From NCBI GenBank assembly GCA_021163285.1, contig JAGGXA010000164.1, positions 1 through 34,053 on the forward strand: a stretch of 34,053 bases of DNA. The letters are read 5' to 3'. This DNA comes from Deltaproteobacteria bacterium. GTDB taxonomy: Bacteria; Desulfobacterota; DSM-4660; Desulfatiglandales; Desulfatiglandaceae. The translations under genes and the position numbers were made by a program. Positions within the stretch are counted from its first letter, which is position 1, and every line of letters starts with the position of its first letter. The notes beneath the pieces are model-generated. The model was not told the DNA's origin. It was given only the letters and a program-made list of their open reading frames with translations, and searched no databases. Below, piece by piece: positions 2,769-27,893 of this stretch.

Positions 2769-2928
2769 AGGGAACTTACAGAAAATAATCTCAGCATCCT
2801 GCTTGCCCTTTTGCCCGTCTTCTGCGTTGCGGTAACAGTTGTATAGTTCACTATGCAAATGTTACCACGCCTTGAAGACGAACAAAAATTCTGCGCGATA
2901 TGCTGAGATTATTACCTTTCAGTTCCCT
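2769..2928. repeat. Palindromic MITE-like element, family A copy 1
   Basis: Ends AGGGAACT...AGTTCCCT; inner arms AATAATCTCAGCAT/ATGCTGAGATTATT, GTCTTC/GAAGAC, GGTAACA/TGTTACC. Recurs in reverse orientation at 16359-16519. Confidence 0.8.
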
Positions 2929-4088
2929 TATTGCAGAACCTCAATTGCTTTATCAAACTTTTCTATCATCTCCATTCTCCAATCTTCATCTATGGTTACG
3001 GCACGGCCTGCAATTTTTTCGCAATAACCGCAAATCTCACAATCCGTATGAAGACAGTCGATCTTTTTTATATGATCAAGAAAACCATCCAGCCTGGTGT
3101 TGTCTATATAGACCTTTTGAGGAAAGGGTTCACGTAATACTCCCATAATCCGGTCCATTTTCTCCTTTTCGATCAGATCCGGACGGTCAATAAGATCAAG
3201 GTTCGGCTGTATATATATTCCCTCCTGAGGGAGTGTCAATATCTCGGCAAGGTTTCCGGGATAAGACCTGAGCTCATAGGCATTAAGTATCCTGATAAGA
3301 CTTTCCGTCCCCCTGAATCTTTCTACAAGCTTAATGCAGTCTATGCCTGCATCCTCATAATAACAGATATCCTCTGGACGTATCCAGCATGACCTTAAAA
3401 ATTCCGACGGTCTAAAGAGCTTCCTTCTCTGGCAGGACAGCTTGCAGTAATCGACTGCAAAACCACCTGATGGGTGACTGTTCTGCGAGCCGTGAGAAAC
3501 CATATTACGGTGATGCAGATCAAAAGGGCAGTTATAGAGGCAACAGTGATTGGCTATTACCTCAAGCTCGCAATCCACCCCTTCCCTGATGAGGCCCAAT
3601 GTTTTGAAGTCCCTTGTCACGGATTCGGGCAGGATGATCTTATCCGCCCCCATCTCTTCCCAGAAACGTGCAAGATAGACGCTGTTTATCCGGGCAAAGG
3701 ATGAAATGCTCACTTTTAGCTGAGGGAAGTTCTTTTTGATCAACTGGATGAGAAAAGGGAGTGAAACCGTCACCATATCGGCTCCGGTCGAGGAGATCCA
3801 TTCAAGATGTTCCATGATCCGCTTATGCCCTTTTTTTGTGAACTCTTCATTATCAAAACAGGTGGCATTTATTATGTAGTTAAAACTCAATCCCCTCCTC
3901 CGGGTTTCGGAAATAAAGCCTTTTGCCTCCTCCTTATACACCCTGGGGATAAATATGAGCATCCTGCCGCCACCGAGAGGGTCTCCCCATGCCTGGCCAT
4001 AGAGACTGCTCACGGTAGTTCCCTCAAGATTATCTAAAAGCGCCGGGTCCCAATTGGTTGCAATCGAATATTGAACACCCATTCTCAA
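2928..4088 (-). CDS. Peptidase U32-family protein (UbiU/UbiV-like Fe-S protein)
   Basis: TIM-barrel-like U32 pattern with conserved cysteines (NHCCLYNCPFDLHH, DYCKLSC, RSCWIRPEDI) and C-terminal CLHTDCEICGYC. Paralogous to 4085-5260. Confidence 0.75.
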   Translation of the reverse strand: MRMGVQYSIATNWDPALLDNLEGTTVSSLYGQAWGDPLGGGRMLIFIPRVYKEEAKGFISETRRRGLSFNYIINATCFDNEEFTKKGHKRIMEHLEWISSTGADMVTVSLPFLIQLIKKNFPQLKVSISSFARINSVYLARFWEEMGADKIILPESVTRDFKTLGLIREGVDCELEVIANHCCLYNCPFDLHHRNMVSHGSQNSHPSGGFAVDYCKLSCQRRKLFRPSEFLRSCWIRPEDICYYEDAGIDCIKLVERFRGTESLIRILNAYELRSYPGNLAEILTLPQEGIYIQPNLDLIDRPDLIEKEKMDRIMGVLREPFPQKVYIDNTRLDGFLDHIKKIDCLHTDCEICGYCEKIAGRAVTIDEDWRMEMIEKFDKAIEVLQ

Positions 4089-5260
4089 TTCTCCTTAAAG
4101 ACATCGCCGTTTAACATGGCCTTGATAAAATCTTCAAAAGGCTTGCGCCGCTTTTCCGCCTCATCCCTGTCAAAATGGCCTGTCTTATCAAAGGTTCTTT
4201 GACAGAAACCGCACTTTTCGCAGTCTCTGTTGCGGCAGGAGCCGTTTTCCCGGAAAAAATCAATAAAATTCCCAAACTTCTTGTTATCTATATATATAAA
4301 ATCCCTGAAGGCAAAATTCATAAGCCCTGCTATCCGTCCGATCTTTGAAACATTAACATGTTCCGGTTTATTGAAATAATCAAGATTCGGCTTTAAATAG
4401 ACGTCAGGGTTTGTAAGTGTGAGTATGTCTATGAGATTTCCGTCAAAGCTCCTCTTTTGATAGCTCATTACCGTATTAAGGAGCACCTCTGACTTTTTGA
4501 ACCTTTCCACCACCTTGAATTTGTTAAATCCGATCTCTTCATAGGCCCAAAGGTCTTCAGGCCTGATCCAGCAGGCCTTAATGATCTCGACCGGCTCTGT
4601 AAATTTCTTCAGGGTGCAATTGAAATAAGGAAATTGAAGGTAACATGAATTGTCCATGCTATGGGTCTGTGAGGCGTGGCCGTCATGAGCCACATGCTCC
4701 AATTGATGGGGACAGTCGCGCAGACAGCAGGGATTGGAAATAAGCTCAATCTCACATTTAACCGCCTCCCTGATGGCGGAAAGCGTATCAAAATCCCGGT
4801 TTATATTCTCATCAATAATCATCTCATCCACACCAAAGTCCTCATATTGTTTCGCCCTGCTCACGGAGTTTATCCGGCATACGCTCGAGGCCTTGATCTT
4901 CATCCCCGGGAGGACTTCCTGAACCAGTTTTATCATGTAAGGAAAGCCGACTGTTACAAAATCCACACCAATAGAACCTATCCATTCAAGAAGCTCTACA
5001 ATCTCTCTGTATCCCTTCCTTGAATAGTGAATATTGTTTATGCACATCGTGTTCAGAAGGTAATTAAATCTTATTCCCGCCTTATGCGCGTGCGTTACAT
5101 GTTCCCTTGCCTGCTCGCGGCTTATCTGCGGTAGCAAAAAAGAGGGCCTTGCTCCGCCTATCACATCAAAAGGGAGCTTTCCATATATTTCCTCGGTACA
5201 TGTGTCTTTAAGGCCATCCAGCAAAGAATCATCCCAGTTAGTCGATACTCTTAATTCCAT
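4085..5260 (-). CDS. Peptidase U32-family protein (UbiU/UbiV-like Fe-S protein), paralog
   Basis: ORF track start is 5326, but ATG at 5260 (MELRVSTNWDDSLL) has GGAG 7 nt upstream and aligns with the paralog N-terminus (SIATNWDPALLDNL). Cysteines NPCCLRDCPHQ, SCYLQFPYFNC, KACWIRPEDL, CRNRDCEKCGFC. Confidence 0.75.
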   Translation of the reverse strand: MELRVSTNWDDSLLDGLKDTCTEEIYGKLPFDVIGGARPSFLLPQISREQAREHVTHAHKAGIRFNYLLNTMCINNIHYSRKGYREIVELLEWIGSIGVDFVTVGFPYMIKLVQEVLPGMKIKASSVCRINSVSRAKQYEDFGVDEMIIDENINRDFDTLSAIREAVKCEIELISNPCCLRDCPHQLEHVAHDGHASQTHSMDNSCYLQFPYFNCTLKKFTEPVEIIKACWIRPEDLWAYEEIGFNKFKVVERFKKSEVLLNTVMSYQKRSFDGNLIDILTLTNPDVYLKPNLDYFNKPEHVNVSKIGRIAGLMNFAFRDFIYIDNKKFGNFIDFFRENGSCRNRDCEKCGFCQRTFDKTGHFDRDEAEKRRKPFEDFIKAMLNGDVFKEN

Positions 5261-6716
5261 AATCATTCTCCTTTTTCTCAACGTCGCACCAGCGCAAGAG
5301 GGAAGAGATTGGAGCAATACCGTCATGATGCCACATCATGGACGGCAATGCCATGTTGCCTGGTGATGTAATCCTCGCCACACCTGCCTCCCCAAGCCTT
5401 GATATAAACTCTTTTTCCCTGTTATCCCCTATTGACAGCGCTGCATTTTGCAAAAACGGCCCCAAAGGCCTGAGGGCTGGAATGATCTCAAAGATATCAT
5501 GCACGGCAAATACCCTGATAAACCTGTTCAGTGGAGAGGCATGAAAAATACCGGGGTCTTTTTCACAGACGACAGTCCATCCTGTGTTCTTTGAAGATGC
5601 AAACATGGTTACATCCTCTCCATTCAGTTCTCTGAACTCATATCTCCCCCTGAGTTGATTGATCAAAGCGGCCTCTCCCGGAGATAGGGCGCCCCGCGGC
5701 ATCTTTGTTTCCATCTTTTTCATCGCATTTGCCAGGGCACCGGCAAACTCCTTTGGCGATACCTCTCCCCCATCCTCCACGTAATAGACATGCGGCGCAA
5801 GACAGGCATGTTGATCAAACATGGAGATGTCATATGCAACAGATGCGGCAAGCGCATCAAGGGCATCATAATTCAATCTGTTCCTGCCAAGCACCCCGAA
5901 CCCTAACTTATGCCCGTGGGTCAGGACCGTGACCCTGCGGGGGATCCTCTTCATGACAGAGGTCAAGGTCTCCACTCCGCCGAAGAGGATTGCGGCATCC
6001 GCCTGATTAAAGGCTGCACTTTCCAGGTCTTTATTCCCTCCTTTCCAGTAAAGGGCTGCGAGACTGCAAGCCATTTCAGGGTCAATATCCTCAATCGTCT
6101 TTAAGTAGAGAGGGATAAATGAGGGTTCACCTGATGCCAGTTTTCCCAGGCAGGCGGACTTTATAAGGAGAGACCTCATGAAAACGAGATGGGGAAGGGC
6201 CGGGATATTCCCTGAAAAAAAAGAGACGATAAGCCGGGGTCCAAAGGCCCTGCAATAACCGTTTAAACTTTCCGAGTATTGAAAATCATCTAAATAGAAG
6301 GGATTTCCTGTCTCTGACTTGAGAGCACGCAGGATATCTTCCTTAAGGGAGCTTTTCATCTCCACATCAATGCTTTCATCCACTGCCCCGGGAGAAAGGC
6401 CGGTCATTACAGGTATTATCTTCAGCGCCAGTTTTCGGTATGGATATTTCCTGTCAAGCCACAAACGGGAGGCCTTGTCGAGTGTATGGACGATTTTCTC
6501 TACAGGCATACCGCTCAAGTATTTATCCCTCTTCTCTTTTAAGTAGCCTGCAAGAAGTGCCACCTTTTTTTTTGTGAGAACCGGAAACTTTAAATGGACA
6601 ATTTTGTCCCCGCGTTGATACTCTCCTGTTGTTACGGGGGGCATCTCAGGGCTGAAGCCGGGCGGGAAATAAAAGCCATTTGCCTCTATTACCTCCATCA
6701 CATTCCCCTCCATCAT
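5238..6716 (-). CDS. luxC: LuxC-like acyl-CoA/acyl-protein reductase
   Basis: Aldehyde-dehydrogenase-like protein with DQHACLAPHVYYVE (LuxC catalytic Cys motif); overlaps the LuxE-like gene by 4 nt. Confidence 0.8.
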   Translation of the reverse strand: MMEGNVMEVIEANGFYFPPGFSPEMPPVTTGEYQRGDKIVHLKFPVLTKKKVALLAGYLKEKRDKYLSGMPVEKIVHTLDKASRLWLDRKYPYRKLALKIIPVMTGLSPGAVDESIDVEMKSSLKEDILRALKSETGNPFYLDDFQYSESLNGYCRAFGPRLIVSFFSGNIPALPHLVFMRSLLIKSACLGKLASGEPSFIPLYLKTIEDIDPEMACSLAALYWKGGNKDLESAAFNQADAAILFGGVETLTSVMKRIPRRVTVLTHGHKLGFGVLGRNRLNYDALDALAASVAYDISMFDQHACLAPHVYYVEDGGEVSPKEFAGALANAMKKMETKMPRGALSPGEAALINQLRGRYEFRELNGEDVTMFASSKNTGWTVVCEKDPGIFHASPLNRFIRVFAVHDIFEIIPALRPLGPFLQNAALSIGDNREKEFISRLGEAGVARITSPGNMALPSMMWHHDGIAPISSLLRWCDVEKKENDYGIKSID

Positions 6717-7840
6717 ATCCCTTCCATGATACCTGTCATCCTGCTCATCTCCTCTATTGTCAGGGAACAGCCGCGGACATCCCTTTCTCCGGCCCTCCCT
6801 GAAACCTCAAAACCACCATCAATAATCCTTCCAAGATCATCAGTCTGAATAGCGCAAATGTGTCCTCTGTTTGCCAGATCAAAGTACCTCAAAAGACCTG
6901 TCTCACCTATGGGCAGAGGCTCAAGAGTATCAGGGTTTACAACCAGGACCCTGGTCCATGGCGGGATAAATTTTGCAGGGAGATTATCCACCCCAAGGCC
7001 CCGGTTTTTCAGGTTGTTGTCATAATACTGTGAGGCTGTCTCGGTCATTCCAATGAGGTTTACACAAAATTCCCTTGAAACCCCCAGGAATTCTCCGCAA
7101 TAATCGAGAAATTCTTCCCTTACCACATCTCTGCTCTTTCCCTTGATCCCGCCTGCATCGAGGCATCTGGAACCTTTCGGGAGTCTGAATTTCAACCTGT
7201 TGGCCCTCAAAAAATCGAAAAAATTGATGAAGCCGAATGAACCTCCGCAAATGGTTGCCGGTATATTGTCCTCTTCAGAACTTCTGAGAGCGTCTGCAAG
7301 GGCATCGGCATCAAATCCATTCTTCCCTATAAAAAAACGGCTCCCCTGAAGGCCGAAAGAATCTTTCAACCTGTTCATGCCAAAAACCATAACCATATTT
7401 GGGGCGATATCAGGGGAAGGAGCAATAACAAAGAGCCTGCTCTTTATCCTGTCGGGAAAAAGGAGGCCTGAGGCAGCATGAGAAATGGTGGCCTTCATCA
7501 GTGCGAGTCCGCCCATATCATAGTCTACCCTGCCCTTTTGATCCGGATTAACGGTTCCGCTTGTCATGAATGTTTTAACTGTGAGAGAAGGAAGGAGGGT
7601 AAGACGAACCGCCTTAAAGACATCTGTGAAAACAGGGGGAACATCTTTCCAGGAGGCAATATTGCCGGGCGTAACCCCTCTCCTTTGACAATAACGCCTG
7701 TAGAGGGGGATATATTTATACTGGAGAGCAAAGCTCCTGATGGCCAGCCGGTTAAAGCCTTCATCATCCCGGTGGTCAACCCCTCTTTCGATAAAAGACA
7801 AGATATCTTCATCAACAGCCTTTACATCGGGGGGAAACAT
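6713..7840 (-). CDS. luxE: LuxE-like acyl-protein synthetase (ATP-dependent acid activation)
   Basis: LuxE family features: YKYIPLYRRYCQRRGVTPGNIASWKDVPPVFTDVFK, KTFMTSGTVNPDQKGRV, NLIGMTETASQYYDNN. Adjacent to the LuxC-like gene. Confidence 0.8.
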   Translation of the reverse strand: MFPPDVKAVDEDILSFIERGVDHRDDEGFNRLAIRSFALQYKYIPLYRRYCQRRGVTPGNIASWKDVPPVFTDVFKAVRLTLLPSLTVKTFMTSGTVNPDQKGRVDYDMGGLALMKATISHAASGLLFPDRIKSRLFVIAPSPDIAPNMVMVFGMNRLKDSFGLQGSRFFIGKNGFDADALADALRSSEEDNIPATICGGSFGFINFFDFLRANRLKFRLPKGSRCLDAGGIKGKSRDVVREEFLDYCGEFLGVSREFCVNLIGMTETASQYYDNNLKNRGLGVDNLPAKFIPPWTRVLVVNPDTLEPLPIGETGLLRYFDLANRGHICAIQTDDLGRIIDGGFEVSGRAGERDVRGCSLTIEEMSRMTGIMEGI

Positions 7841-21205: not shown

Positions 21206-22498
21206 ATGGCAGAAGAAGCAATAAACCTGAGAGAACAACAGGGAGAATTCAGAAAAAAGGTTAGGGAAATATTACCAGAAGGTAATTTAGACCTTTGTCT
21301 TACTTGTGGGGCCTGTGCCAGCGGTTGCCCTGCTACCGGTCTTGAAGATATGGATCCCAGAAAGTTTGTCAGGATGGTGGTGCTGGGAATGGATGAAGAG
21401 GTAATGACCACGCCATGGGTCTGGATGTGCAGCATGTGTCAGCGTTGCATTTATGTTTGTCCCATGAAAGTGGATATCCCCCGGATGGTTTATCTGGCAC
21501 GTCAGACCTGGCCGCGTGAAAATCGTCCGAAAGGGATACTTGGTTCGTGTGATATGGCGCTGAGAAATGATAGTTGCAGTGCTATGGGGGCATCTCCCGA
21601 AGACTTCCAGTTCGTTGTGGAAGATGTAGCTGAAGAAGTCAGAGAGACACAGCCGGGCTTTGAAACACTCCGGGCGCCGATAGATAAACAGGGTGCAGAA
21701 TTTTTCCTTAACCAGAATTCAAGGGAGCCAGTAACCGAGCCGGATGAAATGATACCGCTCTGGAAAATTTTACATGTTGCAGGGATTGACTGGACTTACG
21801 GAAGCAAAGGATGGGGAGGAGAAAATTACTGCATGTTTCTCTCCGATGATGATGGCTGGAAACATATTGTCAGCACAAGTATCAAGCAGGCCGAAGACCT
21901 GGGGTGTAAGACCTATCTAAACACTGAATGAGGCCACGTAACCTTTGCAGTCCTGGAAGGACTGAGAAAATTCGGAATCAAGACTAACCTGGATGTTGTA
22001 AGTATCTACCAGTATTATGCCAAGTGGATCAGGGAAGGAAAATTAAAGGTTAATTCTGACTGGAATAAGGATCTGAAAGTCAAGTTCACTGTTCAGGATC
22101 CATGTCAGATTGTACGTAAAAGCTATGGAGATCCAGTGGCGGACGATCTTCGGTATGTGGTAAAAGCAGTTGTGGGAGAAGAAAACTTTATTGACATGAC
22201 CCCAAACAAATCAAACAACTATTGCTGCGGCGGCGGTGGTGGATATCTCCAGTCCGGTTATGTGGATGCGCGTCATCAATACGGCAAGATCAAGTTTGAT
22301 CAGATCACAGCCACTGGAGCTGATTATTGTATAGCTGCCTGTCATAACTGTCATGCACAGATTCATGATCTCGCTGAGCATTTTGAGGGTAAATATCACA
22401 CAGTCCATCTATGGACACTTATCTGCCTTTCTCTCGGTATCCTTGGAGAGAATGAACGGGAATATTTAGGTCCTGATCTGGCAGAAGTGGGATTATAA
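21206..22498 (+). CDS. HdrC-HdrB-like fused Fe-S oxidoreductase (CCG domain), predicted selenoprotein with in-frame TGA (Sec) at 21929-21931
   Basis: SD GGAGG before ATG 21206. Two 4Fe-4S motifs (CLTCGACASGCP, CSMCQRCIYVCP). Reading through TGA gives NTE[U]GHVTFAVLEGLRKFG...QDPCQIVRKSYGD...NYCCGGGGGYL...AACHNCHAQI in a single frame to 22498. The track splits it into 21206-21931 and 22136-22498. Confidence 0.88.
21948..21964 (+). promoter_or_regulatory. Putative bacterial SECIS element
   Basis: CAGTCCT-GGA-AGGACTG: perfect 7-bp stem and 3-nt loop starting with G; loop begins 23 nt after the TGA. Stem may extend through TTT(21944-46)/AAA(21967-69). Confidence 0.75.
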
Positions 22499-22532: not shown

Positions 22533-22564
22533 ATCCCGTCCCTGAACAGGCGGGATTTTTTTTA
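22533..22564 (+). terminator. Rho-independent terminator after the selenoprotein gene
   Basis: ATCCCGTCCCTGAACAGGCGGGAT followed by a T run. Confidence 0.75.
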
Positions 22565-22743: not shown

Positions 22744-23232
22744 ATGGATGTATACGATATAAAATCAAAAGAAGAGTGGCAGGATATCCTGGATGATGTC
22801 AGTCACGAATTAGGAATACCCGCCTCCCTCGCGGATAATAAAAACGCCATATTACAATCCAGCGGGAAACGAAATGAACTATGTCTAAAAATACGCGCAA
22901 ATAGTCAGGCATTAACATTTATTTGCGGCCAGACCCAACAGTTTATGGCGGAACAGGCTAAGTCGACAAAGAGGCCTTTCATTGATGCATGCGAAGCGGG
23001 AATGTCAAAATTTGTGCTGCCTCTTTTTCTCAAAGGAGAATGGGTTGGATCCTTTACAGCTTGTGGTGCATGTATTCCAGGCAATGAAATCGAAGATTTC
23101 ATTATTCAGAAAAACAGTGGGTTGAGTGAAGAAGAAATAAACCTGCTTAAAGTGCATGTACCGCAGATCGAAGAGTCAAAGTTTGTTGAAACTGCAAACA
23201 GATTATTCAATGAGTTGCAGAAATATGCATAA
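22744..23232 (+). CDS. Stand-alone PocR-like sensory domain protein
   Basis: ELGIPASLADNKNAILQSSGKRNELCLKIRAN ... FIDACEAGMSKFVLPLFLKGEWVGSFTACG resembles the PocR ligand-sensing domain; no output domain. Confidence 0.65.
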   Translation: MDVYDIKSKEEWQDILDDVSHELGIPASLADNKNAILQSSGKRNELCLKIRANSQALTFICGQTQQFMAEQAKSTKRPFIDACEAGMSKFVLPLFLKGEWVGSFTACGACIPGNEIEDFIIQKNSGLSEEEINLLKVHVPQIEESKFVETANRLFNELQKYA

Positions 23233-26624: not shown

Positions 26625-26660
26625 AAGAAAAAAGATGCAGGACTGTTACAGTCCTGCATC
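26625..26660 (-). terminator. Rho-independent terminator of the thiolase gene
   Basis: 12-bp perfect stem GATGCAGGACTG-TTA-CAGTCCTGCATC (26634-26660); minus-strand reading is followed by TTTTTTCTTT. Confidence 0.8.
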
Positions 26661-26696
26661 TTTATCCGTGTTATCTATCTGTTTCGGTCGGGAAGA

Positions 26697-27893
26697 TCAT
26701 CTTCCAACGATACCAATGCTGATAATATTATTGATTGGAAATCCACCGAGGTTGTGTGTAAGGCCATACTTGGGATTTTCGATCTGCCTGTCTCCGGCCT
26801 TTCCCTGCAACTGTTTATACATTTCATACATCATTCTGAGACCGGAGGCCCCGATGGGATGTCCAAAACACTTAAGCCCGCCATCAGGCTGGCACGGTAT
26901 TTTTCCATCTAATTCATAAAACCCATCTTTTATATCATCACCTGCCTTGCCTCTTGGAGAGATGTGGAGGTCTTCATAGGTTACAAGCTCTGTGATGGAG
27001 AAGCAGTCATGAACCTCCATCATACCCACCTCTTCTCTCGGATTTGTGATGCCGGCCTCATTATATGCCATATCCACGCATTTATTGGTCGTCTTGACAT
27101 AGGTCCCGTCCCAGTCAGTATACATCAATTCTTCACCGGAGCTGATTGCTACCTGCATGGCCTTGACAAGAACAGGATCCGACCTGAAATTCTTGGCCAT
27201 ATCCGCACGGCAGACAATAGCCGCGGCAGAACCGTCACTCACACCGCAGCAGTCAAAGAGACCTAATGGATAGGCTATCATAGGCGCATTCATTATCTGT
27301 TCAACTGTTGCCTCTCTTCTTAGGTGGGCCTTTGGATTTTTGGCGCCATTCTTATGACTTTTTGCGGATATCATGGCAAGCAGCTTTTTCCCCTCTTTCG
27401 GATCGATGCCATATTTTGCAAAATAGGCATTTGCCATCATGGCAAATGCCCCCGGAGCAGTAACATTGGGCATTATCATCCTGTTCTTGTTTCCCATCTG
27501 GGTAAAAAGATCAGGAAGTCCTCCATAGCCGGTATCCTTTAATTTTTCCACACCGAGGGCAAGACAAATATCATAGGCCCCTGAAGCCACGGCATAAACT
27601 GCGTTTCTTAATGCTTCAGTACCGCCGGCACAAAAGTTTTCAACCCTTGTAACGGGCTTAAACGGGAGCTTTAAAGTCATGCTGAGCGGCATGCCGGTCT
27701 TTCCAACGTTATTGCTGTCCATACATGTGCTGAACCAGGCAGCATCAATATCTTTTTTTTCTATTCCAGCGTCTTCAATAGCTTCCTGAAACGCTTCAAC
27801 CATTAAGTCTTCTCCGCCTGCCTCCCAGCGCTCACCAAACCGGGTGCAACCCATTCCGATAATAGCGACCTTATCTCTTATACCTTCTGACAT
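26697..27893 (-). CDS. Thiolase-family (SCPx-type) acyl-CoA acetyltransferase
   Basis: VENFCAGGTEALRNAVYAVASG (nucleophilic Cys) and KCFGHPIGASGLRMMYEMYKQLQG. Confidence 0.85.
   Translation of the reverse strand: MSEGIRDKVAIIGMGCTRFGERWEAGGEDLMVEAFQEAIEDAGIEKKDIDAAWFSTCMDSNNVGKTGMPLSMTLKLPFKPVTRVENFCAGGTEALRNAVYAVASGAYDICLALGVEKLKDTGYGGLPDLFTQMGNKNRMIMPNVTAPGAFAMMANAYFAKYGIDPKEGKKLLAMISAKSHKNGAKNPKAHLRREATVEQIMNAPMIAYPLGLFDCCGVSDGSAAAIVCRADMAKNFRSDPVLVKAMQVAISSGEELMYTDWDGTYVKTTNKCVDMAYNEAGITNPREEVGMMEVHDCFSITELVTYEDLHISPRGKAGDDIKDGFYELDGKIPCQPDGGLKCFGHPIGASGLRMMYEMYKQLQGKAGDRQIENPKYGLTHNLGGFPINNIISIGIVGR

Follow-up and report, generated by a model that had tools for sequence, protein, structure and literature searches.

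A hairpin behind an in-frame TGA as a very probable SECIS element within the gene of an HdrD-like iron-sulfur selenoprotein

The question raised by the locus described here is whether a TGA codon ends a gene or is read as selenocysteine (Sec) within it. In the window, that is, the whole stretch of 34,053 nucleotides of deltaproteobacterial DNA that was analysed, an open reading frame starting with ATG at position 21206 of the forward strand ends at a TGA (21929–21931, forward strand), and reading this codon as Sec yields a single protein of 430 residues that extends to position 22498 and carries Sec at codon 242. Standard gene calling would split the gene at the TGA into fragments of 241 and 120 residues; read correctly, it would encode a complete redox enzyme of the HdrD-like type that belongs to anaerobic energy metabolism and has Sec beside a predicted noncubane cluster. 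We conclude, with a probability of about 97%, that the hairpin at 21948–21964 is a bacterial SECIS (bSECIS) element embedded in a gene that encodes a selenoprotein, namely an HdrD-like iron-sulfur protein, and we infer SelB binding and Sec insertion at this site. The conclusion is based on the observations that (i) UGA replaces an otherwise invariant Cys, (ii) a conserved and covarying hairpin is lost along with Sec in Cys-containing homologs, and (iii) the Sec machinery is complete.

Judged by its Pfam content (a Fer4_8 dicluster domain and a C-terminal CCG domain), the product of the gene at 21206–22498 is predicted to be an HdrD/TmcB/HmcF/DsrK-like iron-sulfur protein, and Pfam detected no membrane-anchor domain in the 430 residues. 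Assignment as a TmcB, HmcF or DsrK equivalog was rejected since the NCBIfam scores fall far under the cut-offs (182.6 vs 750 bits for HmcF, 168.5 vs 735 for TmcB and 126.6 vs 400 for DsrK), and the protein is thus a relative rather than a member of these families. In the translation, Sec242 is held by a conserved E-U-G-H motif, and column 242 of an alignment of 65 sequences is invariably Cys or Sec. When 297 genomes from the phylum of the window were sampled, 127 proved to contain a relative at E ≤ 1e-30, and the near homologs come from records titled Desulfobacteraceae, Desulfobacterales or Deltaproteobacteria. Among the 176 homologous places that cover the site, 148 carry TGA at the same codon and 28 align a Cys codon with it (24 TGC, 4 TGT). 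One TGA homolog (L043) comes from Desulfonema magnum, a relative that is in culture. A TGA that truly terminates translation, or that results from a sequencing error or from pseudogene formation, combined with a hairpin that is a chance palindrome, is exceedingly improbable: the 148 TGA homologs are nearly always devoid of any other internal stop, the protein stays collinear with its homologs over 188 residues downstream of the TGA, invariant cluster Cys residues included, and in the relatives examined the TGA, the reading frame and the stem are all conserved. Two homologs do possess additional in-frame stops (TAG in L186, G163:C57; TGA and TAA in G295:C122).

The preliminary description of this DNA had noted a perfect 7-bp stem directly after the TGA, and its sequence and coordinates proved exact: on the forward strand, the 5' arm CAGTCCT (21948–21954) and the 3' arm AGGACTG (21958–21964) enclose the loop GGA (21955–21957), which begins 23 nt past the TGA as claimed, and the same nucleotides are coding (GCA GTC CTG GAA GGA CTG AGA, translated as AVLEGLR). 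Also as proposed there, folding with RNAfold yields a stable stem of 7 bp with a loop of 3 nt. Viewed in isolation the hairpin is only mildly unusual, and its fold energy is weak evidence. For positions 21926–21970 RNAfold gives −11.9 kcal/mol, which corresponds to a z-score of only −1.8 relative to dinucleotide shuffles (14 of 200 being equally good), and for a longer slice the z-score is −0.9; the window contains 39 perfect 7-bp short-loop stems, compared with 21.6 in simulations, and about 10 of its 1358 TGAs (∼0.7%) are followed by such a stem with a suitably placed loop G. These numbers speak for a chance palindrome. Comparable hairpins not being rare in the window, chance is excluded by comparison with homologs, where compensatory changes preserve the stem, and not by energy. 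A scan of the window at Rfam gathering thresholds returned zero matches, which we do not count against a SECIS element because bacterial SECIS elements are diverse. The small loop opening with G and the spacing, described beforehand as lying within the general bacterial layout, agree with the published bSECIS model, which specifies a spacing of 16–37 nt (here 23 nt), a stem of 4–16 bp (7 bp), a loop of 3–9 nt (3 nt), G within the first two loop positions, mostly as G[G/U]N (GGA here; GGN or GTN in 102 of 102 distinct TGA homologs above 50% identity), and a minimum free energy of ≤ −7.5 kcal/mol (PMC13188914).

For the comparison, positions were numbered from the T of the TGA as 1, so that the seven pairs run from 20-36 to 26-30, and the near homologs (>50% identity) comprised 102 distinct TGA and 13 distinct Cys sequences. 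The TGA sequences form on average 6.95 of the 7 pairs, with all seven present in 97 of 102, and the Cys sequences form 3.23. Equal conservation in Cys homologs had been named beforehand as the outcome that would speak against a SECIS element; instead, the stem is relaxed to 3.2 of 7 pairs, that is, to chance level. The compensatory changes that had been proposed as a further check are found among TGA homologs at four of the seven pairs, both sides having changed at 26-30 (T-A, G-C and A-T variants), 22-34 (G-C to A-T), 23-33 (T-A to C-G) and 21-35 (A-T to T-A in homolog L145). In a subset of 28 rows, hand-picked from the full set for diversity and thus not random, 25 cells have both sides changed as compared with 8.3 after shuffling, covariation amounts to 0.393 vs 0.170 (none of 500 shuffles being as high), and shifting the partner column abolishes it. 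Applied to the Cys rows, this count gave no signal, with 46% paired. Unprompted, RNAalifold returned exactly these seven pairs and no others. In a quick protein tree built without the columns of the site, pair 26-30 requires at least 19 changes among the Sec rows; repeated changes of this kind imply that the covariation does not reflect a single inherited event. As judged from the aligned sequences, the comparative evidence lifts the hairpin above chance.

Could the hairpin nonetheless be a by-product of conserved codons, imposed by the protein and carrying no RNA signal? The conserved peptide A/S-V-x-x-G-L does favor pairing: when all synonymous recodings of each sequence's own peptide are enumerated, the TGA sequences attain a mean of 4.10 of 7 pairs. 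The observed 6.95 is well above this null, only ∼1.4% (median) of the recodings equal the observed stem, and the Cys sequences lie at their own null (3.23 observed vs 3.17), having lost the stem; hence, the excess of pairing is confined to Sec genes. Moreover, some stem changes are paired amino-acid changes, namely Leu to Arg where CTG-GCA becomes CGG-GCC, V to I accompanied by GGACTG to GGATTG, and L to Q in L145. Protein constraint as the sole origin of the hairpin has, in our view, a probability close to nil, and a SECIS element embedded in coding sequence is the reading which we retain.

Since no tRNA gene was found within the window, the Sec machinery was sought genome-wide in the 2.7 Mb genome to which the window belongs and which is 97% complete. 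The search revealed a single tRNA-Sec above cut-off (69.8 bits; anticodon TCA according to ARAGORN), SelA (602.5 bits), full-length SelB (369.6 bits) and SelD (380.1 bits), which together make up a complete Sec machinery in the same genome. The selD gene (L198) has one in-frame TGA of its own and thus probably encodes a selenoprotein too; SelD is commonly reported as a selenoprotein. Decoding of the TGA as another residue, for example Trp under genetic code 4, would as read-through likewise yield the full protein, but the TGA is an ordinary stop elsewhere, as exemplified by the thiolase open reading frame at 26646–27893, which gains few residues on read-through, and homologs have Cys instead of Trp at codon 242. 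Given also that tRNA-Sec, SelA, SelB and SelD are all present, such decoding is most unlikely. The thiolase stop, the codons of the homologs, the covariation and the null behavior of the Cys homologs led us to reject Trp reassignment, a pseudogene and codon constraint.

With Sec insertion as the preferred reading, the following course of events can be proposed. At the UGA of codon 242, SelB carrying Sec-tRNA-Sec would bind the G[G/U]N loop that the 7-bp hairpin presents 23 nt further on, and translation would not terminate but continue with insertion of Sec to give the 430-residue protein. The latter is predicted to hold two cubane [4Fe-4S] clusters bound by eight invariant Cys within residues 31–85, and one noncubane [4Fe-4S] cluster bound by C300, C340, C341, C379 and C382, as suggested by the invariant Cys pattern of the 65-sequence alignment (two cubane sites and one five-Cys noncubane site). 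Sec242 would reside in a degenerate first CCG domain and, by alignment with EtfD, face the noncubane site. An AlphaFold model (pLDDT 92.7) has its best fold match in EtfD (9ojn; E = 3.3e-10), followed by HdrB; the structural match to EtfD comes with ∼16% identity, and a profile alignment places U242-G-H244 onto C581-P-H583 of EtfD. In EtfD, C581 is a ligand of the linear cluster D1 and H583 completes the noncubane [4Fe-4S] cluster D2 (PMC13083937). Within the first CCG domain, position 242 is the sole cluster residue that is invariably Cys or Sec here. Because no other Cys of this domain is invariant, it appears likeliest, on the basis of a remote alignment, that Sec242 provides a reactive selenol directed at the noncubane cluster, where it might either act as a ligand or carry out an attack during thiol/disulfide or electron-transfer reactions. 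As with the cluster assignment, we infer the catalytic role and the partner; a literature search combining DsrK, a noncubane cluster and DsrC found nothing.

On the protein tree the Sec and Cys states require at least six changes. The existence of many Sec and Cys versions makes the benefit of selenium at this site, and the loss of the SECIS element after a switch from Sec to Cys, directly testable. Thirty distinct TGA sequences represent remote homologs (33–43% identity). In 25 of them, at least five contiguous pairs form a stem at the same place; the loop measures 4 nt, with the register shifted by one, in 19, and 3 nt, with the register of the window, in 6. A seventh sequence in the latter register has three contiguous pairs only, and four others score in neither. 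By eye, these five remaining sequences (L182, L161, L162, L165 and L185) display a stem of 4 bp that encloses 6 nt of loop. In remote Cys relatives no stem exceeds three pairs. The remote homologs (L155–L196) thus present two stem registers at about 19–38 nt from the start of the TGA, 19 of 30 with the 4-nt and 7 of 30 with the 3-nt loop. Taken together, the paired replacements, the interchanges of Sec and Cys with a merely background-level hairpin in the Cys forms, and the two registers make it fairly probable that the hairpin shapes the protein and that the family offers an unusually clear natural experiment on SECIS loss and register shift within coding sequence. What is new is modest, namely the repeated Sec/Cys switching with loss of the SECIS element and the two stem registers.

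The Sec gene is isolated in the window, its neighbours being a sigma-54 regulator gene and, downstream, a PocR-sensory-domain gene (22744–23232, forward strand; Pfam PF10114). The latter is at most a candidate part of the system, and its sequence cluster recurs in 4 of 80 homologous loci. A pattern scan identified a possible intrinsic terminator after the Sec gene (22533–22556, forward strand; an 8-bp stem followed by T7), about 1.4 such sites being expected by chance in the region. The 80 loci comprise the window itself and a single Cys locus. An HdrA-like neighbour is found in 43 of them, in 21 of these 43 together with MetF-like genes, and MetV-like genes are found in 23 of the 80; these three names were assigned by inspecting the sequences and not by a family search. 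Elsewhere in the genome, a Cys paralog (64% identity) adjoins an mvhD/FlpD gene and HdrA-like open reading frames (L201, contig C192 of the same genome, 356–3212 and 3999–5616, reverse strand), which appear as overlapping pieces in different frames, suggesting assembly frameshifts or decayed genes. Phage records gave no match. On the reverse strand of the window, a LuxE-like acyl-protein synthetase gene lies at 6689–7840, near a homocitrate synthase-like open reading frame, which was checked, and near LuxC- and LeuC/LeuD-like ones named by sequence reading only; two adjacent, similar open reading frames are located at 2928–4088, which matches peptidase family U32, and at 4034–5395.

How does this selenoprotein relate to known systems? 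The hairpin conforms to every geometric constraint of the published bacterial SECIS consensus, its 3-nt loop being at the lower size limit, and no differences were found (bSECISearch model; PMC13188914). The SECIS element is very probably real and of an ordinary kind, and the outcome is a sound annotation correction along with comparative data of good quality rather than a new system. When compared with EtfD of Mycobacterium smegmatis (PDB 9ojn; PMC13083937) and HdrB of methanogens, the protein shares the fold and the five-Cys noncubane motif, but has Sec242 at the place of Cys581 of EtfD and no Pfam membrane-anchor domain. An Fe-S oxidoreductase-like protein (GlpC, COG0247) is listed among bacterial selenoproteins (PMC9312934, PMC13188914), with a UGH motif given for it (PMC13188914). 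Being an Fe-S protein with CCG and Fer4_8 domains and a UGH motif, the protein is by domain content, motif and context assigned to this catalogued GlpC/HdrD-type kind of selenoprotein; the listed protein (PTHR43551; reference WP_174406253.1) is likewise described as a deltaproteobacterial Fe-S protein with Sec in UGH. In Deltaproteobacteria, the Fe-S oxidoreductase-like selenoprotein is encoded in operons with hdrA, frhD, frhG and frhA (PMC1794560), and the HdrA-like neighbour noted above recalls this arrangement, whereas the Sec copy in the present genome stands alone. Finally, Desulfobacterium autotrophicum HRM2 has a Sec-containing HdrD (hdrD4), and each of its Hdr groups includes paralogs both with Sec and lacking it (PMC2702500); likened by description, both proteins are soluble, Sec-containing HdrC+HdrB-like fusions whose genomes also encode Cys paralogs.
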